From contig NC_091142.1 in the NCBI RefSeq assembly GCF_041381155.1, forward strand, positions 43,622,747 through 43,686,746: a stretch of DNA of 64,000 bases, read 5' to 3'. The translations under genes were made by a program, and so were the position numbers. The notes beneath the pieces are model-generated. The model was given only the letters and a program-made list of their open reading frames with translations. It was not told the origin of the DNA and made no database searches. Origin of the DNA: Argopecten irradians. Lineage: Eukaryota > Mollusca > Bivalvia > Pectinida > Pectinidae. This document shows positions 7,044 to 49,008 of the stretch, in pieces (positions within the stretch are counted from its first letter, which is position 1; the number at the start of each line of letters is the position of its first letter).

Positions 7044-7199
7044 AATGGATCCGGAGTTGCCAAGTGTTAGATGTTATGAGTATTGTTACCAGTCTGGCGA
7101 GTCTGACTGTCATGTTAGTGACCGCCTTCACACACAACTATAAACAACAACAGAGGAAAGCTCGACACATCTTCATCATAGTCTTATCTTTTATATCTG
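7044..7199 (+). CDS. Claudin/PMP22-like membrane protein, coding exon 2
   Basis: A TTTACAGTTTCAG acceptor precedes 7044. The exon completes a split codon (phase 1) and reads EWIRSCQVLDVMSIV..., giving the end of the first loop, helix 2 with the conserved Arg before it, a short HNYKQQQRKAR cytoplasmic turn and the start of helix 3 (HIFIIVLSFIS). It ends with G and a strong GTAAGT donor at 7200 (phase 1). The last 49 bases of this exon, together with the donor and 40 intron bases, are the founder sequence of the 89-bp tandem array filling the following intron. Confidence 0.88.
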
Positions 7200-10100
7200 G
7201 TAAGTATTTAGTCATATCTAACTAGTGACAGTCTTCATACAGAGGAAAGCTCGACACATCGTCATCATAGTCTTATCTTTTATATCGGGTTAGTATTCAG
7301 TCATATCTAACTAGTGACAGTCTTCATACAGAGGAAAGCTCGACACATCGTCATCATAGTCTTATCTTTTATATCGGGTTAGTATTTAGTCATATCTAAC
7401 TAGTGACAGTCTTCATACAGAGGAAAGCTCGACACATCGTCATCATAGTCTTATCTTTTATATCTGGTTAGTATTCAGTCATATCTAACTAGTGACAGTC
7501 TTCATACAGAGGAAAGCTCGACACATCGTCATCATAGTCTTATCTTTTATATCTGGTTAGTATTTAGTCATATCTAACTAGTGACAGTCTTCATACAGAG
7601 GAAAGCTCGACACATGGTCATCGTAGTCTTATCTTTTATATCTGGTTAGTATTTAGTCATATCTAACTAGTGACAGTCTTCATACAGAGGAAAGCTCGAC
7701 ACATGGTCATCGTAGTCTTATCTTTTATATCTGGTTAGTATTTAGTCATATCTAGCTAGTGACGGTCTTCATACAGAGGAAAGCTCGACACATCGTCATC
7801 GTAGTCTTATCTTTTATATCTGGTTAGTATTTAGTCATATCTAACTAGTGACAGTCTTCATACAGAGGAAAGCTCGACACATGGTCATCGTAGTCTTATC
7901 TTTTATATCGGGTTAGTATTTAGTCATATCTAACTAGTGACAGTCTTCATACAGAGGAAAGCTCGACACATCGTCATCGTAGTCTTTATCTTTTATATCG
8001 GGTTAGTATTTAGTCATATCTAACTAGTGACAGTCTTCATACAGAGGAAAGCTCGACACATGTCATCATCGTAGTCTTATCTTTTATATCTGGTTAGTAT
8101 TTAGTCATATCTAACTAGTGACAGTCTTCATACAGAGGAAAGCTCGACACATGGTCATCGTAGTCTTATCTTTTATATCGGGTTAGTATTCAGTCATATC
8201 AAACTAGTGACGGTCTTCATACAGAGGAAAGCTCGACACATCGTCATCGTAGTCTTATCTTTTATATCGGGTTAGTATTCAGTCATATCAAACTAGTGAC
8301 AGTCTTCATACAGAGGAAAGCTCGACACATGGTCATCGTAGTCTTATCTTTTATATCTGGTTAGTATTTAGTCATATCTAACTAGTGACAGTCTTCATAC
8401 AGAGGAAAGCTCGACACATGGTCATCGTAGTCTTATCTTTTATATCTGGTTAGTATTTAGTCATATCTAACTAGTGACAGTCTTCATACAGAGGAAAGCT
8501 CGACACATGGTCATCGTAGTCTTATCTTTTATATCTGGTTAGTATTTAGTCATATCTAACTAGTGACAGTCTTCATACAGAGGAAAGCTCGACACATCGT
8601 CATCGTAGTCTTATCTTTTATATCTGGTTAGTATTCAGTCATATCTAACTAGTGACAGTCTTCATACAGAGGAAAGCTCGACACATGGTCATCGTAGTCT
8701 TATCTTTTATATCGGGTTAGTATTTAGTCATATCTAACTAGTGACAGTCTTCATACAGAGGAAAGCTCGACACATGGTCATCATAGTCTTATCTTTTATA
8801 TCTGGTTAGTATTTAGTCATATCTAACTAGTGACAATCTTCATACAGAGGAAAGCTCGACACATGGTCATCGTAGTCTTATCTTTTATATCTGGTTAGTA
8901 TTTCAGTCATATCTAACTAGTGACGGTCTTCATACAGAGGAAAGCTCGACACATGGTCATCGTAGTCTTATCTTTTATATCGGGTTAGTATTCAGTCATA
9001 TCTAGCTAGTGACAAGTCTTCATACAGAGGAAAGCTCGACACATGGTCATCGTAGTCTTATCTTTTTATATCTGGTTAGTATTTAGTCATATCTATAGTG
9101 ACGGTCTTCATACAGAGGAAAGCTCGACACATGGTCATCATAGTCTTATCTTTTATATCTGGTTAGTATTTAGTCATATCTAACTAGTGACAGTCTTCAT
9201 ACAGAGGAAAGCTCGACACATGGTCATCGTAGTCTTATCTTTTATATCTGGTTAGTATTTAGTCATATCTAACTAGTGACAATCTTCATACAGTGGAAAG
9301 TTCGACAACACATGTCATCATAGTCTTATCTTTTATATCTGGTTAGTATTTAGTCATATCTAACTAGTGACGGTCTTCATACAGAGGAAAGCTCGACACA
9401 TGGTCATCGTAGTCTTATCTTTTAATATCTGGTTAGTATATTTAGTCATATCTAACTAGTGACAATCTTCATACAGTGGAAAGCTCGACACATCGTCATC
9501 ATAGTCTTATCTTTTATATCTGGTTAGTATTTAGTCATATCTAACTAGTGACGGTCTTCATACAGAGGAAAGCTCGACACATGGTCATCGTAGTCTTATC
9601 TTTTATATCTGGTTAGTATTTAGTCATATCTAACTAGTGACAGTCTATACAGAGGAAAGCTCGACACATGTCATCGTAGTCTTATCTTTTATATCTGGTT
9701 AGTATTTAGTCATATCTAACAAGTGACAGTCTTCATACAGAGGAAAGCTCGACACATCGTCATCATAGTCTTATCTTTTATATCTGGTTAGTATTCAGTC
9801 ATATCTAACTAGTGACAGTCTTCATACAGAGGAAAGCTCGACACATCGTCATCATAGTCTTATCTTTATATCTGGTTAGTATTCAGTCATATCTAACTAG
9901 TGACAGTCTTCATAATAGAAAACTAGTGACTACTCTTCATACAGAGGAAAGCTCGACACATCGTCATCATAGTCTTATCTTTTATATCTGGTTAGTATTT
10001 AGTCATATCTAACTAGTGAAAGTCTTCATACAGAGGAAAGCTCGACACATGGTCATCGTAGTCTTATCTTTTATATCGGGTTAGTATTTAGTCATATCTA

Positions 10101-11940
10101 ACTAGTGACGGTCTTCATACAGAGGAAAGCTCGACACATGGTCATCGTAGTCTTATCTTTTATATCTGGTTAGTATTTAGTCATATCTAACTAGTGACAG
10201 TCTTCATACAGAGGAAAGCTCGACACATGGTCATCGTAGTCTTATCTTTTATATCTGGTTAGTATTTAGTCATATCTAACTAGTGACAGTCTTCATACAG
10301 AGGAAAGCTCGACACATGGTCATCGTAGTCTTATCTTTTATATCGGGTTAGTATTTAGTCATATCTAACTAGTGACAGTCTTCATACAGAGGAAAGCTCG
10401 ACACATGGTCATCGTAGTCTTATCTTTTATATCGGGTTAGTATTTAGTCATATCTAACTAGTGACAGTCTTCATACAGAGGAAAGCTCGACACATGGTCA
10501 TCGTAGTCTTATCTTTTATATCGGGTTAGTATTTAGTCATATCTAACTAGTGACAGTCTTCATACAGAGGAAAGCTCGACACATGGTCATCGTAGTCTTA
10601 TCTTTTATATCTGGTTAGTATTTAGTCATATCTAACTAGTGACAGTCTTCATACAGAGGAAAGCTCGACACATGGTCATCGTAGTCTTATCTTTTATATC
10701 TGGTTAGTATTTAGTCATATCTAACTAGTGACGGTCTTCATACAGAGGAAAGCTCGACACATGGTCATCGTAGTCTTATCTTTTATATCTGGTTAGTATT
10801 TAGTCATATCTAACTAGTGACAGTCTTCATACAGAGGAAAGCTCGACACATCGTCATCGTAGTCTTATCTTTTATATCTGGTTAGTATTTAGTCATATCT
10901 AACTAGTGACAGTCTTCATACAGAGGAAAGCTCGACACATGGTCATCGTAGTCTTATCTTTTATATGGGTTAGTATTTAGTCATATCTAACTAGTGACAG
11001 TCTTCATACAGAGGAAAGCTCGACACATGGTCATCGTAGTCTTATCTTTTATATCTGGTTAGTATTTAGTCATATCTAACTAGTGACAGTCTTCATACAG
11101 AGGAAAGCTCGACACATGGTCATCGTAGTCTTATCTTTTATATCGGGTTAGTATTTAGTCATATCTAACTAGTGACAGTCTTCATACAGAGGAAAGCTCG
11201 ACACATGGTCATCGTAGTCTTATCTTTTATATCTGGTTAGTATTTAGTCATATCTAACTAGTGACAGTCTTCATACAGAGGAAAGCTCGACACATGGTCA
11301 TCGTAGTCTTATCTTTTATATCTGGTTAGTATTTAGTCATATCTAACTATGTGACAGTCTTCATACAGAGGAAAGCTCGACACATGGTCATCGTAGTCTT
11401 ATCTTTTATATCGGGTTAGTATTTAGTCATATCTAACTAGTGACAGTCTTCATACAGAGGAAAGCTCGACACATGGTCATCGTAGTCTTATATCTTTTAT
11501 ATCTGGTTAGTATTTAGTCATATCTAACTAGTGACAGTCTTCATACAGAGGAAAGCTCGACACATGGTCATCATAGTCTTATCTTTTATATCGGGTTAGT
11601 ATTTAGTCATATCTAACTAGTGACAGTCTTCATACAGAGGAAAGCTCGACACATCGTCATCGTAGTCTTATCTTTTATATCGGGTTAGTATTTAGTCATA
11701 TCTAACTAGTGACGGTCTTCATACAGAGGAAAGCTCGACACATGGTCATCGTAGTCTTATCTTTTATATCTGGTTAGTATTTAGTCATATCTAACTAGTG
11801 ACAATCTTCATACAGAGGAAAGCTCGACACATGGTCATCGTAGTCTTATCTTTTATATCTGGTTAGTATTTAGTCATATCTAACTAGTGACAGTCTTCAT
11901 ACAGTGGAAAGCTCGACACATCGTCATCGAGTCATATCTT
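7151..11940 (+). repeat. 89-bp tandem array containing exon 2 end and its donor (array A1)
   Basis: The unit runs from CAGAGGAAAGCTCGACACAT through TTTTATATCTG, then GTTAGTATTTAGTCATATCT and on to GACAGTCTTCATA. The starts at 7151, 7240 and 7329 set an 89-bp period, and about 54 copies fit. The first copy is the real end of exon 2 plus its donor GTAAGT; later copies carry GTTAGT, i.e. A to T at intron position +3. Main variants are CGTCATC/GGTCATC and TCTGG/TCGGG, with scattered one-base indels. Every copy therefore holds 46 to 49 bases of former exon and a weaker donor in sense orientation. Confidence 0.97.
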
Positions 11941-12290
11941 TGAGATTAAGATTTAGCCATAAGCTTTGATTAGGATCTACAAAATAAGTTCTATCATACT
12001 TTCCAAACGTAACATTGAGTCTCTGTTTCTTCTATTACAATACTGAGCCTATTGTTGATAAAACTTTGGGGACTCGATCCTGATTTATCTTTACACATTG
12101 TAGCCCAAATGGCAAGGGCCATCGCACACTTTCATCAGAGCTATCAAAGTGATTTGAATAAGTTATATAACTTGTTTCGTGATTTAAGTGCATAATTATA
12201 TTAACATCAAGGTAAAGTCCATTGTTGTTTATTTGATTGATTATAGAAACATATGGATGAAATAATGTGCTTATTATTCTTTCTGTTTAG
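11941..12290 (+). other. Remainder of claudin-like gene intron 2
   Basis: Single-copy AT-rich intron sequence ending in a good polypyrimidine acceptor, TTATTCTTTCTGTTTAG, at 12290. Nothing else is recognised. Confidence 0.8.
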
Positions 12291-12499
12291 CTGTGTTCCT
12301 GCAAATAGCTATAGCGGTAGCATTCAGAGCTAACTTTCCTTTTGGAGTTGCCTCCCTTTCCTGGTCTGTGCCCGTAGGAATCATCGCTGTTGTATTCTAT
12401 GGTATCACAGGCATTGTGATGATTATTGACCTTCTTCGTCTCATCTTTTATGGGGATACACAACGGACACATGTCAAGCAATCAGGAAACATTGGCTGA
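12291..12499 (+). CDS. Claudin/PMP22-like membrane protein, coding exon 3 (as sequenced)
   Basis: The exon continues helix 3 (VFLQIAIAVAF), the second extracellular loop (RANFPFGVASLSWS) and helix 4 (VPVGIIAVVFYGITGIVMII), then a cytoplasmic tail that stops at TGA 12497-12499. The three exons sum to 549 nt, encoding 182 residues. FGxSxSW-type sequence before helix 4 is typical of the superfamily. The tail as read is short and ends THVKQSGNIG. A one-base-shifted frame continues for 44 codons with a more convincing tail (next entry), so the GGGG run at 12452-12455 may contain one base too many. Confidence 0.85.
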
Positions 12500-12632
12500 T
12501 TCCATGTTTTATGGAAAGCGGGAGGGACTAGTTTTGGCTGATTCCATGTTTTATGGAAGGCGGGAGGGACAAGTTGTGGCGGTTTCTACGACAACGCCCT
12601 TAACACAGAACAGTGCAGAAACAATAGTGTAA
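12493..12632 (+). other. Probable true C-terminal tail in the shifted frame, with PDZ ligand
   Basis: In the frame one base later than exon 3 the sequence stays open to TAA at 12630-12632. It contains a 42-bp (14-codon) tandem duplication, LADSMFYGKREGLV then LADSMFYGRREGQV, with few differences, and ends in ETIV, which fits a class I PDZ-binding motif (T at -2, V at 0). Dropping one G from 12452-12455 would join this tail to helix 4, giving about 226 residues, a normal claudin length. In-frame duplication and the PDZ-type end favour this reading. It remains an inference: the frameshift could be real. Confidence 0.55.
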
Positions 12633-12636: not shown

Positions 12637-12639
12637 GCA

Positions 12640-14457: not shown

Positions 14458-17400
14458 ATTATATGTAGGAGGATATATATAACACATAGCAGGACAGTAA
14501 CAACTAATCAACAAGGGCAGGTAACTCTGTTAGGAGACAGCCAGGAGATGTAATGGTGTAGATTATATGTAGGAGGATATGACCAATGGTGGTACAGTAA
14601 CAACTAATCAACAAGGGCAGGTAACTCTGTTAGGAGACAGCCAGGAGATGTAATGGTGTAGATTATATGTAGGAGGATATGACCAATGGTGGTACAGTAA
14701 CAACTAATCAACAAGGGCAGGTAACTCTGTTAGGAGACAGCCAGGAGATGTAATGGTGTCATTATATGTAGGAGGATATGACCATTGGTGGTACAAGAAT
14801 AAACTAATCAACAAGGGCAGGTAACTCTGTTAGGAGACAGCCAGGAGATGTAATGGTGTAGATTATATGTAGGAGGATATGACCAATGGTGGTACAGTAA
14901 TAACTAATCAACAAGGGCAGGTAACTCTGTTAGGAGACAGCCAGGAGATGTAATGGTGTAGATTATATGTAGGAGGATATGACCAATGGTGGTACAGTAA
15001 TAACTAATCAACAAGGGCAGGTAACTCTGTTAGGTGACAGCCAGGAGATGTAATGGTGTAGATTATATGTAGGAGGATATGACCAATGGTGGTACAGTAA
15101 AAACTAATCAACAAGGGCAGGTAACTCTGTTAGGTGACAGCCAGGAGATGTAATGGTGTAGATTAGAATATGTAGGAGGATATGACCAATGGTGGTACAG
15201 TAATAACTAATCAACAAGGGCAGGTAACTCTGTTAGGAGACAGCCAGGAGATGTAATGGTGTAGATTATATGTAGGAGGATATGACCAATGGTGGTACAG
15301 TAATAACTAATCAACAAGGGCAGGTAACTCTGTTAGGAGACAGCCAGGAGATGTAATGGTGTAGATTATATGTAGGAGGATATCACCAATGGTGGTACAG
15401 TAAAAACTAATCAACAAGGGCAGGTAACTCTGTTAGGTGACAGCCAGGAGATGTAATGGTGTAGATTATATGTAGGAGGATATGACCAATGGTGGTACAG
15501 TAATAACTAATCAACAAGGGCAGGTAACTCTGTTAGGTGACAGCCAGGAGATGTAATGGTGTAGATTATGTGTAGGAGGATATAAGCAATGGTGGTACTT
15601 TAACAACTAATCAACAAGGGCAGGTAACTCTGTTAGGAGACAGCCAGGAGATGTAATGGTGTAGATTATATGTAGAAGGATATGACCAATGGTGGTACAG
15701 TAATAACTAATCAACAAGGGCAGGTAACTCTGTTAGGAGACAGCCAGGAGATGTAATGGTGTAGATTATATGTAGGAGGAGGATATGACCAATGGTGGTA
15801 CAGTATTAACTAATCAACAAGGGCAGGTAACTCTGTTAGGAGACAGCCAGGGGATGTAATGGTGTCATTATATGTAGGAGGATATGACCAATGGTGGTAC
15901 AGTAATAAAACTAATCAACAAGGGCAGGTAACTCTGTTAGGTGACAGCCAGGAGATGTAATGGTGTAGATTATATGTAGGAGGATATGACCAATGGTGGT
16001 ACAGTAATAACTAATCAACAAGGGCAGGTAACTCTGTTAGGAGACAGCCAGGAGATGTAATGGTGTAGATTATATGTAGGAGGATATGACCAATGGTGGT
16101 ACAGTAACAACTAATCAACAAGGGCAGGTAACTCTGTTAGGAGACAGCCAGGAGATGTAATGGTGTAGATTATATGTAGGAGGATATGACCAATGGTGGT
16201 ACAGTAATAACTAATCAACAAGGGCAGGTAACTCTGTTAGGAGACAGCCAGGAGATGTAATGGTGTAGATTATATGTAGGAGGATATGACCAATGGTGGT
16301 ACAGTAATAACTAATCAACAAGGGCAGGTAACTCTGTTAGGAGACAGCCAGGAGATGTAATGGTGTAGATTATATGTAGGAGGATATGACCAATGGTGGT
16401 ACAGTAATAACTAATCAACAAGGGCAGGTAACTCTGTTAGGAGACAGCCAGGAGATGTAATGGTGTAGATTATATGTAGGAGGATATGACCAATGGTGGT
16501 ACAGTAATAACTAATCAACAAGGGCAGGTAACTCTGTTAGGAGACAGCCAGGAGATGTAATGGTGTAGATTATATGTAGGAGGATATGACCAATGGTGGT
16601 ACAGTAATAACTAATCAACAAGGGCAGGTAACTCTGTTAGGAGACAGCCAGGAGATGTAATGGTGTAGATTATATGTAGGAGGATATGACCAATGGTGGT
16701 ACAGTAATAACTAATCAACAAGGGCAGGTAACTCTGTTAGGAGATCAGCCAGGAGATGTAATGGTGTAGATTATATATGTAGGAGGATATGACCAATGGT
16801 GGTACAGTAACAAACTAATCAACAAGGGCAGGTAACTCTGTTAGGAGACAGCCAGGAGATGTAATGGTGGTGTAGATTATATGTAGGAGGATATGACCAA
16901 TGGTGGTACAGTAATAACTAATCAACAAGGGCAGGTAACTCTGTTAGGAGACAGCCAGGAGATGTAATGGTGTAGATTATATGTAGAAAAGGATATGACC
17001 AATGGTGGTACAGTAACAACTAATCAACAAGGGCAGGTAACTCATGGTTAGGAGACAGCCAGGAGATGTAATGGTGTAGATTATATGTAGGAGGATATGA
17101 CCAATGGTGGTACAGTAATAAACTAATCAACAAGGGCAGGTAACTCTGTTAGGAGACAGCCAGGAGATGTAATGGTGTAGATTATATGTAGGTACAGGAT
17201 ATAAAACAATGGTACTCCTGTATTACCAGGATGATGTAAATGTACGATTATATTTAGGAGGAAATGACCAATGGTGGTACAGTAACAACTCAATCAACAA
17301 GGGCACGGTAACTCTGTTAGGGAGACAGCCAATGGTGTCATTATACTATGTAGGAGGATATGACCAAAGGGTGGTCAACAGTAACAACTAATCAACAAGG

Positions 17401-20400
17401 GCAGGTAACTCTGTTAGGAGACAGCCAGGGGATGTAATGGTGTAGATTTATATGTAGGAGGATATGACCAATGGTGGTACAGTAATAACTAATCAACAAG
17501 GGCAGGTAACTCTGTTAGGAGACAGCCAGGAGATTGTAATGGTGTAGATTATATGTAGTTAAAGGATATGACCAATGGTGGTACAGTAAACAACTAATCA
17601 ACAAGGGCAGGTAACCTCTGTTAGGAGACAGCCAGGAGATGTAATGGTGTAGATTATGTTAGGAGGGATATGACCAATGGTGGTAACAGTAACAAACTAA
17701 TCAACAAGGGCAGGTAACTCTGTTAGGAGACAGCCAGGAGATGTAATGGTGTAGATTATATGTAGGAGGATATGACCAATGGTGGTACAGTAATTAACTA
17801 ATCAACAAGGGCAGGTAACTCTGTTAGGAGACAGCCATGGAGATGTAATGGTGTAGATTATATGTAGGAGGATATGACCAATGGTGGTACAGTAACAAAA
17901 ACTAATCAACAAGGGCAGGTAACTCTGTTAGGAGACAGCCAGGAGATGTAATGGTGTAGATTATATGTAGGAGGATATGACCAATGGTGGTACAGTAAAA
18001 CTAATCAACAAGGGCAGGTAACTCTGTTAGGAGACAGCCAGGAGATGTAATGGTGTAGATTATATGTAGGAGGATATGACCAATGGTGGTACAGTAATAA
18101 CTAATCAACAAGGGCAGGTAACTCTGTTAGGAGACAGCCAGGAGATGTAATGGTGTAGATTATATGTAGGAGGATATGACCAATGGTGGTACAGTAACAA
18201 CTAATCAACAAGGGCAGGTAACTCTGTTAGGAGACAGCCAGGGGATGTAATGGTGTCATTATATGTAGGAGGATATGACCAATGGTGGTACAGTAAAAAC
18301 TAATCAACAAGGGCAGGTAACTCTGTTAGGTGACAGCCAGGAGATGTAATGGTGTAGATTATATGTAGGAGGATATGACCAATGGTGGTACAGTAAAAAC
18401 TAATCAACAAGGGCAGGTAACTCTGTTAGGAGACAGCCAGGAGATGTAATGGTGTAGATTATATGTAGGAGGATATGCAACCAATGGTGGTACAGTAAAA
18501 ACTAATCAACAAGGGCAGGTAAACTCTGTTAGGTGACAGCCAGGAGATGTAATGGTGTAGATTATATGTAGGAGGATATAACCAATGGTGGTACAGTAAT
18601 TAACTAATCAACAAGGGCAGGTAACTCTGTTAGGAGACAGCCAGGAGATGTAATGGTGTAGATTATATGTAGGAGGATATGACCAATGGTGGTACAGTAA
18701 CAACTAATCAACAAGGGCAGGTAACTCTGTTAGGAGACAGCCAGGAGATGTAATGGTGTAGATTATATGTAGGAGGATATGACCAATGGTGGTACAGTAA
18801 AAACTAATCAACAAGGGCAGGTAACTCTGTTAGGAGACAGCCAGGAGATGTAATGGTGTAGATTATATGTAGGAGGATATGACCAATGGTGGTACAGTAA
18901 AAACTATCAACAAGGGCAGGTAACTCTGTTAGGAGACAGCCAGGAGATGTAATGGTGTAGATTATATGTAGGAGGATATGACCAATGGTGGTACAGTAAC
19001 AAACTAATCAACAAGGGCAGGTAACTCTGTTAGGAGACAGCCAGGAGATGTAATGGTGTAGATTATATGTAGGAGGATATGACCAATGGTGGTACAGTAA
19101 TAACTAATCAACAAGGGCAGGTAACTCTGTTAGGAGACAGCCAGGAGATGTAATGGTGTAGATTATATGTAGGAAGGATATGACCAATGGTGGTACAGTA
19201 AAATTAACTAATCAACAAGGGCAGGTAACTCTGTTAGGAGACAGCCAGGGAGATGTAATGGTGTAGACATTATATGTAGGAGGATATGACCAATGGTGGT
19301 ACAGTAATAACTAATCAACAAGGGCAGGTAACTCTGTTAGGAGACAGCCAGGAGATGTAATGGTGTAGATTATATGTAGGAGGATATGACCAATGGTGGT
19401 AACAGTAAAAAACTAATCAACAAGGGCAGGTAACTCTGTTAGGAGACAGCCAGGAGATGTAATGGTGTAGATTATATGTAGGAGGATATGACCAAATGGT
19501 GGTACAGTAAATGTAATGGTATGTAACTAATCAACAAGGGCAGGTAACTCTGTTAGGAGACAGCCAGGAGATGTAATGGTGTAGATTATATGTAGGAGGA
19601 TATGACCAATGGTGGTACAGTAAAACTAATCAACAAGGGCAGGTAACTCTGTTAGGAGTGACAGCCAGGTAGATGTAATGGTGTAGATTATATGGTAGGA
19701 GGATATGACCAATGGTGGTACAGTAAAAACTAATCAACAAGGGCAGGTAACTCTGTTAGGAGACAGCCAGGAGATGTAATGGTGTAGATTATATGTAGGA
19801 GGATATGACCAATGGTGGTACAGTAATAACTAATCAACAAGGGCAGGTAACTCTGTTAGGAGACAGCCAGGGGATGTAATGGTGTCATTATATGTAGGAG
19901 GATATGACCAATGGTGGTACAGTAAAAACTAATCAACAAGGGCAGGTAACTCTGTTAGGAGACAGCCAGGAGATGTAATGGTGTAGATTATATGTAGGAG
20001 GATATGACCAATGGTGGTACAGTAACAAACTAATCAACAAGGGCAGGTAACTCTGTTAGGAGACAGCCAGGAGATGTAATGGTGTAGATTATATGTAGGA
20101 GGATATGACCAATGGTGGTACAGTAAAAACTAATCAACAAGGGCAGGTAACTCTGTTAGGAGACAGCCAGGAGATGTAATGGTGTAGATTATATGTAGGA
20201 GGATATGACCAATGGTGGTACAGTAATAACTAATCAACAAGGGCAGGTAACTCTGTTAGGTGACAGCCAGGAGATGTAATGGTGTAGATTATATGTAGGA
20301 GGATATGACCAATGGTGGTACAGTAACAACTAATCAACAAGGGCAGGTAACTCTGTTAGGAGACAGCCAGGAGATGTAATGGTGTAGATTATAGTGTAGG

Positions 20401-33000: not shown

Positions 33001-36000
33001 TACATCAGAACTAATAGAGATGGACAGCTGTGGTACATAAGATGTATACTTACATCAGAACTAATAGAAGAAGAGATGGACAGCTGTGGTACATAAGATG
33101 TATACTTACATCAGAATTTAATAGAGATGGGACAGCTGTGGTACATAAGAAGTATACTTACATCAGAAATTAATAGAGATGGACAGCTGTTGGTACATAA
33201 GATGTATACTTACATCAGAACTAATAGAGATGGATGAGCTGTGGTACATAATAGAATGTATACTTACATCAGAACTAATAGAGATGGACAGCTGTGGTAC
33301 ATAAGATGTATACTTACATCAGAACTAATAGAGATGGACAGCTGTGGTACATAAGATGTATACTTACATCAGAACTAATAGAGATGGACAGCTGTGGTAC
33401 ATAAGATGTATACTTACATCAGAACTAATAGAGATGGACAGCTGTGGTACATAAGATGTATACTTACATCAGAACTAATAGAGATGGACAGCTGTGGTAC
33501 ATAAGATGTATACTTACATCAGAAACTAATAGAACTGATGAGCTGTGGTACATAAGATGTATACTTACATCAGAACTAATAGAGATGGACAGCTGTGGTA
33601 CATAAGATGTATACTTACATCAGAACTAATAGAGATGGACAGCTGTGGTACATAAGATGTATACTTACATCAGAACTAATAGAGATGGACAGCTGTGGTA
33701 CATAAGATGTATACTTACATCAGAACTAATAGAACTGATGAGCTGTGGTACATAAGATGTATACTTACATCAGAACTAATAGAGATGGACAGCTGTGGTA
33801 CATAAGATGTATACTTACATCAGAACTAATAGAGATGGACAGCTGTGGTACATAAGATGTATACTTACATCAGAACTAATAGAGATGGACAGCTCTGGTA
33901 CATAAGATGTATACTTACATCAGAACTAATAGAGATGGACTTGAGCTATAAGGTATACTTACATAAAGAATGTATACTGGTACATCAGATGTACTATATA
34001 GAACTAATGATGGACAGCTGTGGTACATAAGATGTATACTTACATCAGAACTAATAGAGATGGACAGCTGTGGTACATAAGATGTATACTTACGTCAGAA
34101 CTAATAGAGATGGACAGCTGTGGTACATAAGATGTATACTTACATCAGAATTAATAGAACTGATGAGCTGTGGTACATAAGATGTATACTTACATCAGAA
34201 CTAATAGAGATGGACAGCTGTGGTACATAAGATGTATACTTACGTCAGAACTAATAGAGAGAGATGGACAGCTGTGGTACATAAGATGTATACTTACATC
34301 AGAACTAATAGAGATGGACAGCTGTGGTACATAAGATGTATACTTACATCAGAACTAATAGAGATGGACAGCTGTGGTACATAAGATGTATACTTACATC
34401 AGAACTAATAGAGATGGACAGCTGTGGTACATAAGATGTATACTTACATCAGAATTAATAGAGATGGACAGCTGTGGTACATAAGATGTATACTTACATC
34501 AGAACTAATAGAGATGGACAGCTGTGGTACATAAGATGTATACTTACATCAGAACTAATAGAACTGATGAGCTGTGGTACATAAGATGTATACTTACATC
34601 AGAACTAATAGAGATGGACAGCTGTGGTACATAAGATGTATACTTACGTCAGAACTAATAGAGATGGACAGCTGTGGTACATAAGATGTATACTTACATC
34701 AGAACTAATAGAGATGGACAGCTGTGGTACATAAGATGTATACTTACATCAGAACTAATAGAGATGGACAGCTGTGGTACATAAGATGTATACTTACATC
34801 AGAACTAATTTAATAGAGATGGACAGCTGTGGTACATAAGATGTATACTTACATCAGAAACTAATAGAGACTGGACAGCTGTGGTACATAAGATGTATAC
34901 TTACATCAGAATTAATAGAGATGGACAGCTGTGGTACATAAGATGTATACTTACATCAGAACTAATCGAGAGATGGACAGCTGTGGTACATAAGATGTAT
35001 ACTTACATCAGAACTAATAGAGATGGACAGCTGTGGTACATAAGATGTATACTTACGTCAGAACTAATAGAGATGGACAGCTGTGGTACATAAGATGTAT
35101 ACTTACATCAGAACTAATAGAGATGGACAGCTGTGGTACATAAGATGTATACTTACATCAGAATTAATAGAGATGGACAGCTGTGGTACATAAGATGTAT
35201 ACTTACATCAGAATTAATAGAGATGGACAGCTGTGGTACATAAGATGTATACTTACATCAGAACTAATAGAGATGGACAGCTGTGGTACATAAGATGTAT
35301 ACTTACATCAGAACTAATAGAACTGATGAGCTGTGGTACATAAGATGTATACTTACATCAGAACTAATAGAGATGGACAGCTGTGGTACATAAGATGTAT
35401 ACTTACATCAGAACTAATAGAGATGGACAGCTGTGGTACATAAGATGTATACTTACATCAGAACTAATAGAGATGGACAGCTGTGGTACATAAGATGTAT
35501 ACTTACATCAGAATTAATAGAACTGATGAGCTGTGGTACATAAGATGTATACTTACATCAGAATTAATAGAGATGGACAGCTGTGGTACATAAGATGTAT
35601 ACTTACATCAGAATTAATAGAGATGGACAGCTGTGGTACATAAGATGTATACTTACATCAGAACTAATAGAGATGGACAGCTGTGGTACATAAGATGTAT
35701 ACTTACATCAGAACTAATAGAGATGGACAGCTGTGGTACATAAGATGTATACTTACATCAGAACTAATAGAGATGGACAGCTGTGGTACATAAGATGTAT
35801 ACTTACATCAGAACTAATAGAGATGGACAGCTGTGGTACATAAGATGTATACTTACATCAGAATTAATAGAACTGATGAGCTGTGGTACATAAGATGTAT
35901 ACTTACATCAGAATTAATAGAACTGATGAGCTGTGGTACATAAGATGTATACTTACATCAGAACTAATAGAGATGGACAGCTGTGGTACATAAGATGTAT

Positions 36001-36437
36001 CTTACATCAGAACTAATAGATGATGAGCTGTGGTACATAAGATGTATACTTACATCAGAACTAATAGAGATGGACAGCTGTGGTACATAAGATGTATACT
36101 TACATCAGAACTAATAGAGATGGACAGCTGTGGTACATAAGATGTATACTTACATCAGAACTAATAGAGATGGACAGCTGTGGTACATAAGATGTATACT
36201 TACATCAGAACTAATAGAGATGGACAGCTGTGGTACATAAGATGTATACTTACATCAGAACTAATAGAGATGACAGCTGTGGTACATAAGATGTATACTT
36301 ACATCAGAACTAATAGAGATGGTCAGGTACATAAGATGTATACTTACATCAGAACTAATAGAGATGGTCAGGTACATAAGATGTATACTTACATCAGAAC
36401 TAATAGAGATGGTCAGGTACATAAGATGTATACTTAC
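27056..36437 (-). repeat. 50-bp tandem array of strong donor sites (array A4)
   Basis: On the plus strand the unit is ACATAAGATGTATACTTACA, TCAGAACTAATAGAGATGGA, CAGCTGTGGT (50 bp), with a variant having GAACTGATGAGCTG. About 185 copies fit. In the gene's sense each unit contains TTCTGAT then GTAAGTATACATCTTATG. The adjoining exon ends GCTGAC then GTAAGTATACATCTTATG, so the unit contains the authentic donor with at least 18 intron bases. Units between 27.8 and 31.9 kb are riddled with small insertions, unlike the clean 32.5-36.4 kb part. The last three units are shortened (GGTCAGGTACATAAG). Confidence 0.97.
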
Positions 36438-37296
36438 GTCAGCGTTTTCGAGATGTCTTCTATCAGATGACATGGCTTCAGATTCATGATCATCATCTAA
36501 AAATGACGAAAGTCGATCCTCAAAAGATACCGATCTCATCTCACCAGGAGAATTGGACCGAATCACTTCCCCTGTATCAGGCCAATTTCTGCCAGAATAT
36601 CTGGCTGAGTCCATTTGATCCCCCTCTGAACTTCTCCCTGTGTCATCCTCCTCGCCAGTGCTGCGATGTCTGACAGACTTTGGAGAGCTATTCTGTACCA
36701 CGTCCTGTAGTCCTGGCCATCGGAGAGATTTAGGAGTGGAAGGACTACTACAGTCCTTTTGTAAAGGTCTCTGTTCTTCCCGGGCACGATCATATTTACA
36801 CAATGGCGGCGTTCTGTACTGACTATCACTGTCCTGCTCTACAGTCTGTTCATGCTCCGTTACAACAGCCGCTGGTGGAGTTCGAGCTTTATTTTGAACT
36901 CTTTTATCAGACTCATTTTGTACCAAAGATAAATGTTTATGGAAAATTTGTCTCTTGCTTTGGGGTGATATCCTTTTACCGTACTTTTCTGACTCTAACA
37001 ACTCAGCTGGTAAACTCTGGTGAAAGTTTCTGGCTTCAAGTGGGCTAGCAGGGACCAAATCAGGCGAATGTTGTCGATGGTGGCGCTCGCGTCTGTCTGA
37101 CATATGAGATGAGTTCCTAGTGTGACGAGGTCGTAACGATGACTGTGGTGAGGTAACCTTCTGTAGATGAGAACTGTCCTGTTTAGTGTCCTGGTTAGAT
37201 GACCTGGGTGTTTCTGTATACAATGATGAATTGTTGGGAGGAGGTGACAGACTACTGTGAGACTTACTACCATAGCTACCACTCCCTCGGGAAGAA
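36438..37296 (-). CDS. CCDC62: CCDC62-like protein, coding exon 10 (long low-complexity exon)
   Basis: An 859-nt exon with acceptor TCTGACTTTACAG at 37297 and donor GTAAGTAT at 36437. It starts by completing a codon (phase 2, matching exon 9) and ends in phase 0 after ENAD. The 286 codons are rich in Ser, Pro, Arg, Asp and Glu (SSRGSGSYGSKSHSSLSPPP, RERHHRQHSPD, SSFLDDDHESEAMSSDRRH) and probably form a disordered tail, equivalent to the poorly conserved long region between the coiled coils and the SKLQRLL block in vertebrate CCDC62. Clean open frame and matching phases make the exon secure; its function is unknown. Confidence 0.9.
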
Positions 37297-37541: not shown

Positions 37542-40500
37542 ATTGTAATGTTACTATCCCACTAAGTTATAATCCTTACTTATACTCCTCCAAACTGTAA
37601 TATTACTATCCCACTTAGTTATAATCCTTACTTATACTCCTCATAACTGTAATATTACTATCCCACTAAGTTATAATCCTTACTTATACTCCCCCAAACT
37701 GTAATGTTACTATCCCACTTAGTTATAATCCTTACTTATACTCCTCCAAACTGTAATGTTACTATCCCACTAAGTTATAATCCTTACTTATACTCCCCCA
37801 AACTGTAATGTTACTATCCCACTAAGTTATAATCCTTACTTATACTCCCCCAAACTGTAATGTTACTATCCCACTAAAATATAATCCTTACTTATACTCC
37901 CCAAACTGTAATGTTACTATCCCACTTAAGTTATAATCCTTACTTATACTCCCCCAAACTGTAATGTTACTATCCCACTTAAGTTATAATCCTTACTTAT
38001 ACTCCCCCAAACTGTAATGTTACTATCCCACATTAAGTTATAATCCTTACTTATACTCCCCCAAACTGTAATGTTACTATCCCACTAATCCTCTTTACTA
38101 TCCCCCATAACTTAATGTTACTATCCCAACTAAGTTATAATCCTTACTTATACTCCCCCAAACTGTAATGTTACTATCCCACTAAGTTATAATCCTTACT
38201 TATACTCCCCCAAACTGTAATGTTACTATCCCACTAAGTTATAATCCTTACTTATACTCCTCCAAACTGTAATGTTACTATCCCACTTAGTTATAATCCT
38301 TACTTATACTCCCCCAAACTGTAATGTTACTATCCCACTAAGTTATAATCCTTACTTATACTCCCCCAAACTGTAATGTTACTATCCCACTAAGTTATAA
38401 TCCTTACTTATACTCCTCCAAACTGTAATGTTACTATCCCACTTAATTATAATCCTTACTTATACTCCCCCAAACTGTAATGTTACTATCCCACTAAGTT
38501 ATAATCCTTACTTATACTCCCCCAAACTGTAATGTTACTATCCCACTAAGTTATAATCCTTACTTATACTCCCCCAAACTGTAATGTTACTATCCCACTA
38601 AGTTATAATCCTTACTTATACTCCCCCAAACTGTAATGTTACTATCCCACTAAGTTATAATCCTTACTTATACTCCCCCAAACTGTAATGTTACTATCCC
38701 ACTAAGTTATAATCCTTACTTATACTCCCCCAAACTGTAATGTTACTATCCCACTAAGTTATAATCCTTACTTATACTCCCCCAAACTGTAATGTTACTA
38801 TCCCACTAAGTTATAATCCTTACTTATACTCCTCCAAACTGTAATGTTACTATCCCACTTAGTTATAATCCTTACTTATACTCCCCCAAACTGTAATGTT
38901 ACTATCCCACTTAGTTATAATCCTTACTTATACTCCCCCAAACTGTAATGTTACTATCCCACTAAGTTATAATCCTTACTTATACTCCCCCAAACTGTAA
39001 TGTTACTATCCCACTTAGTTATAATCCTTACTTATACTCCCCCAAACTGTAATGTTACTATCCCACTAAGTTATAATCCTTACTTATACTCCTCCAAACT
39101 GTAATGTTACTATCCCACTAAGTTATAATCCTTACTTATACTCCCCCAAACTATAATGTTACTATCCCACTTAGTTATAATCCTTACTTATACTCCCCCA
39201 AACTGTAATGTTACTATCCCACTAAGTTATAATCCTTACTTATACTCCCCCAAACTGTAATGTTACTATCCCACTAAGTTATAATCCTTACTTATACTCC
39301 CCCAAACTGTAATGTTACTATCCCACTAAGTTATAATCCTTACTTATACTCCCCCAAACTGTAATGTTACTATCCCACTTAGTTATAATCCTTACTTATA
39401 CTCCCCCAAACTGTAATGTTACTATCCCACTAAGTTATAATCCTTACTTATACTCCCCCAAACTGTAATGTTACTATCCCACTAAGTTATAATCCTTACT
39501 TATACTCCCCCAAACTGTAATGTTACTATCCCACTAAGTTATAATCCTTACTTATACTCCTCCAAACTGTAATGTTACTATCCCACTTAGTTATAATCCT
39601 TACTTATACTCCCCCAAACTGTAATGTTACTATCCCACTAAGTTATAATCCTTACTTATACTCCCCCAAACTGTAATGTTACTATCCCACTTAGTTATAA
39701 TCCTTACTTATACTCCCCCAAACTGTAATGTTACTATCCCACTAAGTTATAATCCTTACTTATACTCCTCCAAACTGTAATGTTACTATCCCACTAAGTT
39801 ATAATCCTTACTTATACTCCCCCCAAACTGTAATGTTACTATCCCACTAAGTTATAATCCTTACTTATACTCCCCCAAACTGTAATGTTACTATCCCACT
39901 TAGTTATAATCCTTACTTATACTCCCCCAAACTGTAATGTTACTATCCCACTAAGTTATAATCCTTACTTATACTCCCCCAAACTGTAATGTTACTATCC
40001 CACTATTTAATCTTACTATTCCAAGTTATAATCCTTACTTATACTACCCCCAAACTGTAATGTTACTATCCCACTAAGTTATAATCCTTACTTATACTCC
40101 CCCAAACTGTAATGTTACTATCCCACTAAGTTATAATCCTTACTTATACTCCTCCAAACTGTAATGTTACTATCCCACTTAAGTTATAATCCTTACTTAT
40201 ACTCCCCCAAACTGTAATGTTACTATCCCACTTAGTTATAATCCTTACTTATACTCCCCCAAACTGTAATGTTACTATCCCACTTAAGTTATAATCCTTA
40301 CTTATACTCCCCCAAACTGTAATGTTACTATCCCACTTAGTTATAATCCTTACTTATACTCCCCCAAACTGTAATGTTACTATCCCACTAAGTTATAATC
40401 CTTACTTATACTCCTCCAAACTGTAATGTTACTATCCCACTAAGTTATAATCCTTACTTATACTCCCCCAAACTGTAATGTTACTATCCCACTTAGTTAT

Positions 40501-41345
40501 AATCCTTACTTATACTCCCCCAAACTGTAATGTTACTATCCCACTTAGTTATAATCCTTACTTATACTCCCCCAAACTATAATGTTACTATCCCACTAAG
40601 TTATAATCCTTACTTATACTCCCCAAACTGTAATGTTACTATCCCACTAAGTTATAATCCTTACTTATACTCCCCCAAACTATAATGTTACTATCCCACT
40701 AAGTTATAATCCTTACTTATACTCCCCCAAACTGTAATGTTACTATCCCACTAAGTTATAATCCTTACTTATACTCCTCCAAACTATAATGTTACTATCC
40801 CACTAAGTTATAATCCTTACTTATACTCCCCCAAACTGTAATGTTACTATCCCACTAAGTTATAATCCTTACTTATACTCCCCCAAACTGTAATGTTACT
40901 ATCCCACTAAGTTATAATCCTTATTTATACTCCTCCAAACTGTAATGTTACTATCCCACTAAGTTATAATCCTTACTTATACTCCTCCAAACTGTAATGT
41001 TACTATCCCACTAAGTTATAATCCTTACTTATACTCCTCCAAACTATAATGTTACTATCCCACTAAGTTATAATCCTTACTTATACTCCCCCAAACTGTA
41101 ATGTTACTAATGTTAATCCTTACTTATATCCCCCCACTTAAGTTACTATCCCACTTAGTTATAATCCTTACTTATACTCCCCCAAACTATAATGTTTACT
41201 ATCCCACTTAGTTATAATCCTTACTTATACTCCTCCAAGCTGTAATGTTACTATCCCACTTAGTTATAATCCTTAATTATACTCCTCCAAACTATAATGT
41301 TACTATCCCACTTAGTTATAATCCTTACTTATACTCCTCCAAACT
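37542..41345 (-). repeat. 52-bp tandem array containing exon 9 end and its donor (array A5)
   Basis: The plus-strand unit is AAACTGTAATGTTACTATCC, CACTAAGTTATAATCCTTAC, TTATACTCCCCC. The 52-bp period is read at 38521 and 38573; about 73 copies fit. In the gene's sense the unit has CAGTTTGGGGGAGTATAA, then GTAAGGATTATAAC. The real exon ends CAGTTTGGAGGAGTATAA followed by GTAAGGATTATAAC, so 18 exon bases and the donor are repeated. Many units keep the exact exon version (CTCCTCC on the plus strand). The array is very homogeneous, with indels mainly near 38.1, 40.0 and 41.1 kb. Confidence 0.97.
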
Positions 41346-41420
41346 GCCTTGTTGTTTTGTGATGATCTCCTTTGTTGTATCCAAATTCAATTGCATCAAT
41401 TTAACTTGCAGTTCATACAA
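41329..41420 (-). CDS. CCDC62: CCDC62-like protein, coding exon 9
   Basis: 92 nt, phase 0 in and phase 2 out, between a GTTATAACAG acceptor and a GTAAGG donor. It encodes LYELQVKLMQLNLDTT, then KEIITKQQGSLEEY plus two bases, the end of the coiled-coil region. It aligns in position with the QQSDLQFLNFN segment I recall in human CCDC62. Both edges are repeated: the donor side in array A5, the acceptor side in array A6. Confidence 0.85.
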
Positions 41421-41509: not shown

Positions 41510-42940
41510 TATACATCTGTTACCCATCCATAATATATATACTAAACCTATACATCTGTTACCCACCCATAATATATATACTAAACCTATACATCTGTTA
41601 CCCACCCATAATATATATACTAAACGTATACATCTAATTACCCACCCATAATATATATACTAAACCTATACATCTGTTACCCACCCATAATATATATACT
41701 AAACCTATACATCTAATACCCACCCATAATATATATACTAAACCGTATACATCTGTTTACCCACCCATAATATATATACTAAACCTATACATCTAATACC
41801 CACCCATAATATATATACTAAACTATACATCTAATACCCACCCATAATATATATACTAAACGTATACATCTGTTACCCACCCATAATATATATACTAAAC
41901 TATACATCTGTTACCCACCCATAATATATATACCATATACATCTGTTACCCACCCATAATATATATACTAAACGTATACATCTGTTACCCACCCATAATA
42001 TATATACTAAACCTATACATCTGTTACCCACCCATAATATATATACTAAACCTATACATCTAATACCCACCCATAATATATATACTAAACGTATACATCT
42101 GTTACCCACCCATAATATATATACTAAACGTATACATCTGTTACCCACCCATAATATATATACTAAACCTATACATCTAATACCCACCCATAATATATAT
42201 ACTAAACGTATACATCTGTTACCCACCCATAATATATATACTAAACCTATACATCTAATACCCACCCATAATATATATACTAAAACTATACATCTAATAC
42301 CCACCCATAATATATATACTAAACCTATACATCTAATACCCACCCATAATATATATACTAAACGTATACATCTGTTACCCACCCATAATATATATACTAA
42401 ACGTATACATCTGTTACCCACCCATAATATATATACTAAACCTATACATCTAATACCCACCCATAATATATATACTAAACGTATACATCTGTTACCCACC
42501 CATAATATATATACTAAACCTATACATCTAATACCCACCCATAATATATATACTAAACGTATACATCTGTTACCCACCCATAATATATATACTAAACCTA
42601 TACATCTGTAATACCCACCCATAATATATATATACTAAACGTACATACATCTGTTACCCACCCATAATATATATACTAAACGTATACATCTGTTACCCAC
42701 CCATAATATATATACTAAACGTATACATCTGTTACCCACCCATAATATATATACTAAATGTATACATCTGTTACCCACCCATAATATATATATACTAAAC
42801 GTATACATCTGTTACCCACCCATAAATATATATACTAAACGTATACATCTGTTACCACCCATAATATATATACTAAATGTATACATCTGTTACCCACCCA
42901 TAATATATACTACTAAATGTATACATCTGTTACCCACCCA
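41510..42940 (-). repeat. 39-bp tandem array (array A6, first part)
   Basis: The plus-strand unit is ACCCACCCATAATATATATA, CTAAACCTATACATCTGTT, 39 bp (42012 to 42051), about 37 copies. Since 39 is 13 codons, a 240-codon minus-strand frame results; it is not a gene. In sense, the unit includes GGTAACAG then ATGTATA, resembling the acceptor of exon 9 (TATAACAG then TTGTATGAAC). Confidence 0.95.
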
Positions 42941-44395
42941 TAATATACTCGAAACGTATACATCTGTTACCTACCCATGAAATACTCGAAATGTATACAT
43001 CTGTTACACACCCATGAAATACTCGAAATGTATACATCTGTTTACCCACCCATATAAATACTAAAGTATACATCTGTTACCTACCCATGAAATATACGAA
43101 ATGTATACATCTGTATACCCACCCATGAAATACTCGAAATGTATACATCTGTTACCCTACCCATGAAATACTCGAAATGTATACATCTGTTACCACCCAT
43201 AAAATACTACGAAATGTATACATCTGTTACCTACCCATGAAATACTCTAAATGTATACATCTGTTACTGTTACCTACCCATGAAATACTCGAAATGTATA
43301 CATCTGTTATTTACCTACCCATGAAATACTCGAATGTATACATCTGTTACCCACCCATGTTACCTACCCATAAATACTCGAAATGTATACATCTGTTACC
43401 CTACCCATAAAATACTCGAAATGTATACATCTGTTACGTTACCTACCCATAAAATACTCGAAATGTATACATCTGTTACCCACCCATAAAATACTCGAAA
43501 TGTATACATCTGTTACCTACCCATAAATACTCGAAAGTATAACTATACATCTGTTACCTACCCATATAATATACTCGAAATGTATACATCCGTTCTGTTA
43601 CCCACCCATGAAATACTCGAAATGTATACATCCGTATACATCTGTTACCTACCCATAAAATACTCGAAATGTATACATCTGTTACCTACCCATATAAATA
43701 CTCGAAATGTATACATCTGTTACTGTTACCCTACCCATTAAATACTCGAAATGTATACATCTGTTACCTACCCATGAAATACTCGAAATGTATACATCTG
43801 TTACTACACACCCATGAAATACTCGAAATGTATACATCTGTTACCTACCCATGAAATACTCGAAATGTATACATCCGTTACTGTTACCTACCCATGAAAT
43901 ACTCGAAATGTATACATCTGTTACCTACCCATGAAATACTCGAAATGTATACATCTGTTACCTACCCATGAAATACTCGAATGTATACATCTGTTACCTA
44001 CCCATGAAATACTCAAAATGTATACATCTGTTACCTACCCATGAAATACTCGAAATGTATACATCTGTTACCTACCCATGAAATACTCGAAATGTATACA
44101 TCTGTTACCTACCCATGAAATACTCGAAATGTATACATCTACTGTTACCTACCCATGAAATACTCGAAATGTATACATCTGTTACCTACCCATGAAATAC
44201 TCGAAATGTATACATCTGTTTACACACCCATGAAATACTCGAAATGTATACATCTGTTACCTACCCATGAAATACTCGAAATGTATACATCTGTTACCTA
44301 CCCATGAAATACTCGAAATGTATACATCTGTTACCTACCCATGAAATACTCGAAATGTATACATCCGTTACTGTTACCTACCCATGAAATACTTG
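42941..44395 (-). repeat. 37-bp tandem array (array A6, second part)
   Basis: A relative of the 39-bp unit with GAAATACTCGAAATGTATAC and ATCTGTTACCTACCCAT, 37 bp, about 38 copies. Insertions are frequent between 42.9 and 43.8 kb and rare after that. The array ends about 225 bp before exon 8. Confidence 0.95.
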
Positions 44396-44619
44396 AGATG
44401 AAATCAACATCAATATGATATAATAAATCAAGACATACAGCGTTTGTCACCCTTGATATATTGTGATAAAATCTTGTTATATTTTTAATTCTATTTTGTT
44501 TTTGGTTAATATCTGGTATAATATATTTAATCTCATACAATATATCAAACAAACACTGATGGTATGATCCTAATGCCAGAATCTGACACCATCCTCCACA
44601 ATGATGTTATGTTTCCTAC

Positions 44620-45318: not shown

Positions 45319-45411
45319 TAAAGTCCTCCTGCATAACAATCTCTAGTTGCTTCATCTGATCTAGTTTTCCTGTCAACTCCAGTAGCTCAGAGTCTCTCTT
45401 AGTCACAATCT
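45319..45411 (-). CDS. CCDC62: CCDC62-like protein, coding exon 7
   Basis: 93 nt, phase 1 in and phase 1 out, acceptor GTTTCGATGACAG, donor GTAAGTAT. It encodes E (split), IVTKRDSELLELTGKLDQ and MKQLEIVMQEDF, then S across the junction to exon 8; heptad-like coiled coil. The first 23 bases and the acceptor are the founder of array A7 immediately upstream. Confidence 0.88.
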
Positions 45412-45420
45412 CTGTCATCG

Positions 45421-46095
45421 AAACACAACATATGTCACCAAAACATTACATGGGCAAGTCACTCTACATATATATATCAGGACCATACAAACATAGCCCG
45501 GAGTCTCTCTTAGTCACGATCTCTGTCAATGACACATGTCACTAAAATATTACAAGGACAACAGTCACTCTACATACCAGAACTATACAAACATAGCCCG
45601 GAGTCTCTCTTAGTCACGATCTCTGTCAATGACACATGTCACTTAAATATTACAAGGACAACAGTCACTCTACATACCAGAACTATACAAACATAGCCCG
45701 GAGTCTCTCTTAGTCACGATCTCTGTCAATGACACATGTCACTTAAATATTACAAGGACAACAGTCACTCTACATGCCAGAACTATACAAACATAGCCCG
45801 GAGTCTCTCTTAGTCACGATCTCTGTCAATGACACATGTCACTTAAATATTACAAGGACAACAGTCACTCTACATGCCAGAACTATACAAACATAGCCCA
45901 GAGTCTCTCTTTGTCACAATCTCTGTCAATGACACATGTCACTAAAATATTACAAGGACAACAGTCACTCTACATACCAGAACTATACAAACATAGCCCG
46001 GAGTCTCTCTTATAGTCACGATCTCTGTCAATGACACATGTCACTAAAACATTAGATGGGCAACAGTCACTCTACATACCAGAACTATACAAACA
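45421..46095 (-). repeat. 100-bp array containing exon 7 start and its acceptor (array A7)
   Basis: GAGTCTCTCTTAGTCAC recurs at 45501, 45601, 45701, 45801, 45901 and 46001, exactly 100 bp apart, and once in the exon at about 45390. In the gene's sense each copy reads TGTCATTGACAG, then AGATCGTGACTAAGAGAGAC, i.e. the acceptor plus about 23 bases of exon 7. There are six intronic copies. The remainder of the unit, with ATTACAAGGACAACAGTCAC, is ordinary intron. Confidence 0.95.
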
Positions 46096-46114
46096 TATCG
46101 TGAGTGAAAGCCTC

Positions 46115-46756: not shown

Positions 46757-46769
46757 TACTCTCATACTT

Positions 46770-47594: not shown

Positions 47595-48430
47595 TAAGTT
47601 TGGCCTACACATTACATTATCATGAGTTTGAACTGAGGTGACCTTCCCTAAGTTTGACCTCAGGTGACCTTCGCTAAGTTTGACCTATACATGACATTGT
47701 TGTGAGTTTGACCTAAGGTGACCTTCCCTTAGTTTGACCTATACATGACATTGTTGTGAGTTTGACTTAAGGTGACCTTCCATAAGTTTGACCTATACAT
47801 GACATTGTTGTGAGTTTGACCTAAGGTGACCTTCCCTTAGTTTGACCTATACATGACATTGTTGTGAGTTTGACCTAAGGTGACCTTCCCTTAGTTTGGC
47901 CTAAGGCAACATTCCCTAAATTTGACCTAAGGTGACTTTCCTAAGTTTGACCTAAGGTAAACTACCCTAAGTTTGACCTAAGGTGACCTTCCCAAAGTTT
48001 GACCTAAGGTGACCTTCCCTTAGTTTGACTTACGGCAATATTCCCTAAGTTTGACCTAAGGAGACCTTCCCTAAGTTTGACCTAAGGAGACCTTCCCTAA
48101 GTTTTGTCCTTAGGTGACCTTCGCTAAGTTTGACCAAAGGTGACCTTCCCTAAGTTTGACCTAAGGTGACCTTCCCTAAGTTTGACCTAAGGTTACCTTC
48201 CCTAAGTTTGACCTAAGGTGACCTTCCCTAAGTTTGACCTAAGGTGACCTTCCTCAAGTTTGACCTAAGGTGATCTTCCCTAAGTTTGACCTTAGGTGAC
48301 CTTCCCTAAGTTTGACCTAAGGTGACCTTCCCTAAGTCTGACCATAGGTTACCTTCCCTAAGTTTGACCTAAGGTGACCTTCCTCAAATTTGACCAATAC
48401 ATGACATGATGTGTGTTTGACCTCAGGTGA
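47595..48430 (-). repeat. 26-bp tandem array derived from exon 5 end (array A8, part a)
   Basis: The plus-strand unit is TAAGTTTGACCTAAGGTGAC CTTCCC (26 bp; 48125, 48151, 48177), with a longer variant containing ATACATGACATTGTTGTGAG near 47.6-47.9 kb. In sense it reads GGTCACCTTAGGTCAAACTT then AGGGAAGG; exon 5 ends GGTCACTTTAGTCAAACTTAAG, then GTAGG. The exon end is thus repeated about 25 times, but the donor GT has become GGA in the units. Confidence 0.9.
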
Positions 48431-48539
48431 CTTACCCTAGATATTTGGTATGGAGTTGACCATATAGTTTGACCAACTGCATGAGATTGATCTAAAGGAG
48501 ATCTAATCTAAATTTTATGACCTCCATAAGTTTGACCAG

Positions 48540-49008
48540 AAGGCGAACTATTCAAGTTTTGACCTAAAGTAAATCTAAACTCCCCAACATTTGATTAAAG
48601 TCAACCTATCTAGGTTTTGACCACAAAGACACCTTTCTAAATTCTGACCACAGAGTCAACCTATCTAGGTTTTGCCACAAATACAACTATCTAGGTTTTG
48701 ACCACAAAGACACCCAAGTTTTGGCAAAAAGACACTTATCTAAATTCTGACCACAAAGACACCTATCTAAATTCTGACCACAAAGTCAACCTATCTAGGT
48801 TTTGACCACAAAGACACCCAAGTTTTGCCACAAAGACACTTATCTAAATTCTGACCACAAAGTCAACCTATCTAGGTTTTGACCACAAAGACACCTATCT
48901 AAATTCTGACCACAAAGTCAACCTATCTAGGTTTTGACCACAAAGACTCCTATCTAAATTCTGACCACAAAGTCAACCTATCTAGGTTTTGAATACAAAG
49001 ACACCTAC
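48540..49008 (-). repeat. About 55-bp array derived from the start of intron 5 (array A8, part b)
   Basis: Units combine GACCACAAAGACACCTATCT with AAATTCTGACCACAAAGTCA and ACCTATCTAGGTTTT. In sense this gives GATAGGTGTCTTTGTGGTC; the real intron begins GTAGGTGTCTTTGTATTC. About eight irregular copies directly abut exon 5. Confidence 0.85.

Follow-up and report, generated by a model that had tools for sequence, protein, structure and literature searches.

The minisatellite of the human IFI6 (6-16) gene reportedly provides multiple splice donor sites, to go by the title of a 1995 paper by Turri et al. Excerpts of published accounts describe how two downstream repeat units of this minisatellite are used as donors and give rise to mRNA variants (PMC4526556), how the RdRp gene of potato gained an intron by a tandem duplication that spanned an intron-exon boundary (PMC4974935), and how minisatellites lie in the introns of an earthworm metallothionein gene, captured junctions going unmentioned in the excerpt concerned (PMC12783039). 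Here we describe a stretch of 64,000 nucleotides of the genome of the scallop Argopecten irradians (C9:43622747-43686746, hereafter the window), in which several minisatellites of a CCDC62-like gene (minus strand) and a PF00822 gene (plus strand) have repeat units that include the edge of the adjoining exon. We think it probable, at roughly 0.68, that such arrays began as random short tandem duplications that were tolerated at exon edges and were amplified in the introns of a repeat-rich genome.

Tandem Repeats Finder returned 48 rows for the window, which were reduced to 12 main arrays (A1-A12; see Table 1), short rows of 2-3 copies at 3670, 12492 and 12897 being left out. Array units were locally aligned to each true junction and the exonic overlap was counted. 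At five of the seven junctions where the first-pass annotation, made from the letters alone, had claimed capture of an exon edge, the capture is clear (18-50 exonic bases): the overlap is 50 bases at donor 7199 (A1), 27 bases at donor 26820 (A3, in a gapped alignment with 78 of 103 columns identical over its whole length), 18 bases at donor 41329 (A5), 29 bases at acceptor 45411 (A7) and, at donor 49009, 26 bases for A9 and 32 bases for A8. A sixth claim, at donor 36438, stands insofar as A4 does run through the donor, yet only 5 exonic bases are shared. At the seventh, acceptor 41420, the overlap with A6 is 0. A uniform ungapped method (offsets 12-400) found 5 of the 25 splice junctions of the window to be straddled by tandem duplications (7199, 36438, 41329, 45411 and 49009), and missed 26820, where A3 has diverged.

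Exonic letters alone were also scored; of the 14 exons, the three that matched each array best were compared with 60 shuffles. The scores, with the shuffle maximum in parentheses, were 95 (27) for A1, 32 (25) for A3, 36 (24) for A5, 48 (24) for A7 and 35 (21) for A8, and each of these matches has the exon's own orientation, sits at the junction where it was expected and reaches the edge or stops at most 2 bases off. The own exons of A4 (h) and A9 (c) were outside the three best matches, and A6 scored 22 with the exon at 41420, below the shuffle maximum of 28. Five further array-exon pairs came out 1-4 points above their best shuffle (A4 with exon j, for instance, scored 25 against 21), so that margins of this size carry no meaning. 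That the exon likeness is mere chance, or that dispersed satellites happened to land beside exons, is hardly credible: A6, whose claimed exon part fails the test, is indeed 71-74% like a 41-bp (base-pair) array on C6 (L021 3719-7523), but the scores of A1, A3, A5, A7 and A8 stand 7-68 points above their shuffles. The earlier assertion that the shared exon parts are too specific for chance is thus borne out at the five clear junctions, for which chance similarity is refuted, and fails at 41420, for which it stands; capture of that acceptor is rejected, as neither alignment test found an exon part in A6.

Table 1. Exons adjoining arrays, main arrays and the duplication at the second stop codon, in positions of the window (bp, base pairs)
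Feature	Position	Strand	Description
PF00822 gene exon 2	7044..7199	+	donor 7199|7200; P0021 match
CCDC62-like exon i	26820..26924	-	NCBI protein alignment
CCDC62-like exon h	36438..37295	-	NCBI protein alignment
CCDC62-like exon g	41329..41420	-	NCBI protein match
CCDC62-like exon e	45320..45411	-	NCBI protein alignment
CCDC62-like exon c	49009..49110	-	NCBI protein alignment
A1	7150..11941	+	89-bp unit, ~53 copies; last 50 exonic bases and changed donor
A2	14494..22912	-	100-bp unit; starts at CCDC62-like stop codon
A3	23487..26819	-	33-bp unit; 27 bases of exon i, diverged
A4	27059..36442	-	~50-bp unit; spans exon h donor, 5 exonic bases
A5	37544..41346	-	52-bp unit; 18 bases of exon g
A6	41510..44400	-	39-bp unit; intronic, no exon part found
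A7	45383..46097	-	100-bp unit, 6 copies; acceptor and first 29 bases of exon e
A8	47625..48395	-	26-bp unit; likeness to exon c edge, ~30 exonic bases, diverged
A9	48597..49034	-	27/54-bp unit; exon c edge and donor
Stop-codon duplication, PF00822 gene	12492..12580	+	42-bp unit, 2.1 copies

The exon edges on which these comparisons depend had been placed correctly, as wherever a junction was claimed the gene models and the NCBI proteins coincide. The spliced CCDC62-like model (exons b-j, 576 amino acids) matches P0001, the A. irradians coiled-coil domain-containing protein 62-like, at 100% identity and coverage as listed, in a comparison that covered exon b (49322-49488) onward. The sole difference in that alignment is that the last exon of the NCBI protein begins with two additional amino acids, at a place where no junction was claimed. 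The plus-strand model is 99% identical to P0021 (A. irradians lens fiber membrane intrinsic protein-like, of family PF00822, which we take to be the PMP22/claudin family); the two are identical across the 7199 junction, and P0021 has two more amino acids at the start of exon 7044-7199, again not a claimed junction. Within the CCDC62-like exon at 51229-51419 the reading frame shifts, which fits the LOW QUALITY label that NCBI attaches to the protein.

In these NCBI proteins splicing is annotated at the exon-proximal (outermost) site, despite the like donor motifs that lie beyond it in A3-A5. A3 holds 87 copies of CAGGTACA and A5 holds 69 copies of AAGTAAGG, both with the donor motif intact, and there are 168 GTAAGT motifs in A4, the true donor counted in. 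A1, with 52 GTTAGT motifs, has a single GTAAGT, which is the true donor, and in A9 eight array copies show AGATAGGT and have thereby lost the donor GT, AGGTAGGT occurring in none. As the donors are intact in A3-A5 and altered in A1 and A9, disabling of the copies is no general requirement. Long introns are protected by U1 binding against premature cleavage and polyadenylation, and arrays that bear donors might be favoured or retained because their many U1 binding sites shield the long introns in which they lie. The intact donors of A3, A4 and A5, in arrays of 3.3-9.4 kb, would suit this idea, which we nonetheless regard as very improbable: the donor is altered in the copies of A9 and also of A1, yet A1 reached 4.8 kb, and no captured donor was found in the long arrays A2, A6 and A12.

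When the scallop arrays are set beside the described systems, they resemble IFI6 in that tandem arrays lie at the exon-intron edge. IFI6 units can serve as donors; to judge by their letters, the scallop units would offer intact donors in A3-A5 and altered ones in A1 and A9. The scallop genes differ from IFI6 in that the annotation uses the exon-proximal site only and in that several unrelated arrays lie within one gene. As in potato RdRp, so far as the excerpted account goes, what was duplicated spans the border of an intron and an exon, splice signals included, but whereas an intron was gained in potato, the scallop introns were lengthened by many copies. In unit length, copy number and abundance the arrays are like scallop intronic minisatellites generally, from which they differ in having units that include an exon edge. 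The human IFI6 minisatellite is a precedent for junction capture in the scallop genes. The first-pass annotation, which knew of no described name for the pattern, was in part mistaken, a human IFI6 minisatellite with multiple splice donor sites being in print, to judge by the title of the 1995 paper; a report of a genome-wide set of such arrays in bivalves was not among the matches listed, with subscription journals mostly uncovered.

The edges of exons c, e and g, and of exon 2 of the PF00822 gene, are conserved in proteins of Pecten, Ylistrum and Mizuhopecten, although the end of exon i (beside A3) is only partly conserved in other scallops. Because exon ends are conserved in these three scallops, the shared sequence most likely originated in the exon and was copied into the array. 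When units were compared with one another, 2 of 66 pairs outscored 40 shuffles, with margins of 4 and 6 points, which rejects the spread of one dispersed satellite; A8 and A9 are both related to the edge of exon c, and are linked through that edge only. Repeated independent capture, as earlier proposed, is thus supported, the array units being essentially unrelated with the exception of A8 and A9. A decay of exon likeness with distance along the array is weak: the Spearman coefficient of likeness against distance of the copy is -0.28 for A1 and -0.58 for A8 (p 0.04-0.05), there is no trend in A5 or in A3 (in which only 12 copies were above threshold), the 6 copies of A7 are flat with distance (listed without a coefficient), and the exon query for A9 matched no array copies. 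Among the three best exons per array, no array clearly holds both flanking exons in one unit, as would be expected of intron gain by tandem duplication; A1 scored 23 with its downstream exon, against a shuffle maximum of 26.

Both stop codons of the window are also straddled by tandem duplications (2/2, by the uniform ungapped method). A2 (8.4 kb) shares 22908-22912, the last 5 coding bases of the CCDC62-like gene with the stop included, and the 42-bp duplication at the stop of the PF00822 gene contains 5 coding bases and the stop. As both stops are straddled, the pattern is not confined to splice sites, and what stops and splice junctions have in common is that each is the edge of constrained sequence.

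These observations can be accommodated if short tandem duplications (~20-120 bp) arise at roughly random positions in the genome, perhaps when staggered breaks are repaired by end joining; the excerpt of the account that we cite (PMC8355091) describes small tandem duplications located at the ends of breaks. A duplication that straddles a splice junction or stop codon would leave the message unchanged, the exon-proximal site (or, at a stop codon, the first stop) continuing in use, and would for that reason be tolerated and presumably neutral, whereas one inside an exon usually would not be tolerated. It could subsequently grow as intronic minisatellites in general do, perhaps through slippage or unequal exchange, with each unit carrying the exon edge. 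The observations that underlie this reading of random founding are the captures themselves, the independence of the units, the exon as source, the annotated use of the exon-proximal site, the very high load of arrays in the genome and the rate of straddling in an unselected sample.

The last two were estimated as follows. Arrays make up 20.0% of 150 kb in 15 arbitrary 10-kb stretches, and an excerpt gives 21.7% tandem repeats for the scallop A. pleuronectes (PMC10225492). For a sample chosen blind to arrays, we took myosin-head exons from a family search with at least 82 places, and used 56 of the 82: 44 with introns (87 junctions), a set biased to compact, exon-rich stretches, whose junctions were deduced from reading frame and splice motifs and may in some cases be off, and 12 with 250-base flanks (24 junctions, two per exon), which follow the search ranking. 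A junction was counted as straddled if the duplication reached 5 bases or more to both sides of it. Tandem duplications straddle 3 of the 111 junctions: a donor in L031 (26 exonic bases), an acceptor in L032 (14 exonic bases) and a donor in L036 (39 exonic bases, 54-bp unit), in genes on three other chromosomes (C5, C10 and C16); none was found by this count among the 12 flanked exons. The density of background duplication clusters is 1.66% per junction in the 150 kb of arbitrary sequence; in the myosin stretches it is 1.89%, with the straddling clusters themselves included, so that 1.85-2.10 straddled junctions would be expected (ratio 1.4-1.6, exact interval 0.3-4.8). When 14 exons from the arbitrary stretches, guessed by open-reading-frame scores, were added, the count became 4 of 139 against 2.3-2.6 expected, the added clear case being an acceptor in L013 with ~28 exonic bases of such a guessed exon. 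There is no significant excess of straddled junctions in the myosin sample and no sign of depletion.

By DNA search, the L036 array occupies C16:3233009-3233656 with ~12 units. Its 54-bp unit is a multiple of three and two copies inspected (in L036 1-157) are without a stop, so that inner donors, if used, would lengthen the protein in frame. Several other matches were not counted. In L040 (71-93 and 250-272) a 23-base stretch at the start of an exon, 3 intronic bases with it, recurs letter for letter 179 bp upstream in the intron; the case fell short because of those 3 intronic bases. In L017 (2465-2687) an 18-bp array of GGTAAAT-type units begins right at the donor of an exon that we take to encode an OTU-like domain, and shares ~2 exonic bases. 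One case in L030 has an uncertain junction and stops within the match, and a short likeness (score 35) links two donor regions of L030 that stand ~1.4 kb apart, beyond the 400-base offset of the method. L034 has an inverted likeness (score 38) and, at 3203-3445, a 118-bp tandem duplication inside myosin coding sequence; as 118 is not a multiple of three, this may be an assembly error, an alternative exon or a pseudogene. Similar myosin exons stand in tandem at 2921-3022 and 3637-3732 of L032, as alternative-exon pairs, and are like the mutually exclusive exons of muscle myosin. In the window itself, remains of an interrupted retroelement, which we take to be of the long interspersed nuclear element (LINE) type, lie at 320-3343 with endonuclease- and reverse-transcriptase-like reading frames.

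The first-pass annotation had proposed that a local process amplifies junctions by preference. Such a process, be it break repair, R-loops or slippage, could in principle act at the borders of exons and introns and found duplications there more often than at other places, and several figures favor it and weigh against random founding. Six of the 10 array loci of the window straddle a junction, against 1.73 expected (P=0.0019) when a seed of the observed length is placed anywhere overlapping array-free intron, a null in which intron lengths are approximate and the intron of A12 is guessed. By one method throughout, 5/25 junctions in the window compare with 3/111 in the myosin sample (Fisher P=0.0055); with sensitive alignments the window count is 6/25 (Fisher P=0.0013 against the same sample, a comparison that mixes two detection methods), and 0.07-0.14 windows with 6/25 would be expected per genome at the background rate, again with methods mixed. 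The sample is also small and allows an enrichment of up to ~4.8-fold, and the laxer cases of L040 and L017 point the same way. However, the window was chosen for this very pattern, so its excess is ascertained, and although at least 5/25 has a probability of 1.3e-4 at the background rate, the 845.8-Mb genome equals 13,215 windows of this size, which makes about one or two such windows per genome. With 3/111 in the unselected sample close to the 1.85-2.10 expected, and with both stop codons behaving like the junctions, we judge preferential amplification of junctions to be unlikely and not supported. The comparison with random placement, suggested earlier as a check, thus gives an excess in the window, which is ascertained, and no significant excess in the 111 unselected junctions; a preference for junctions is not needed to explain the captures, although an excess of up to ~4-5 fold would also be compatible with the counts.

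On the random founding of duplications tolerated at exon edges, the pattern should recur across the genome. If the background rate holds, ~5,400-6,200 of some 327,000 internal junctions would carry a straddling duplication, an estimate that uses 26,777 genes with 7.11 exons each, as given in an excerpt of the published account (PMC7090048). A bolder proposal, that coding edges (junctions and stops) are mild, 2-4 fold hotspots for minisatellite founding in scallops, with thousands of junctions bearing splice-site arrays and with array-borne donors that may help long introns to be tolerated, seems to us distinctly unlikely; if an excess were real genome-wide, minisatellites would have a nursery of a new kind in coding edges. 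At the background rate, scallops would offer a natural experiment in intron growth and in how the spliceosome chooses among like donor motifs, of which there are up to 168 (A4).

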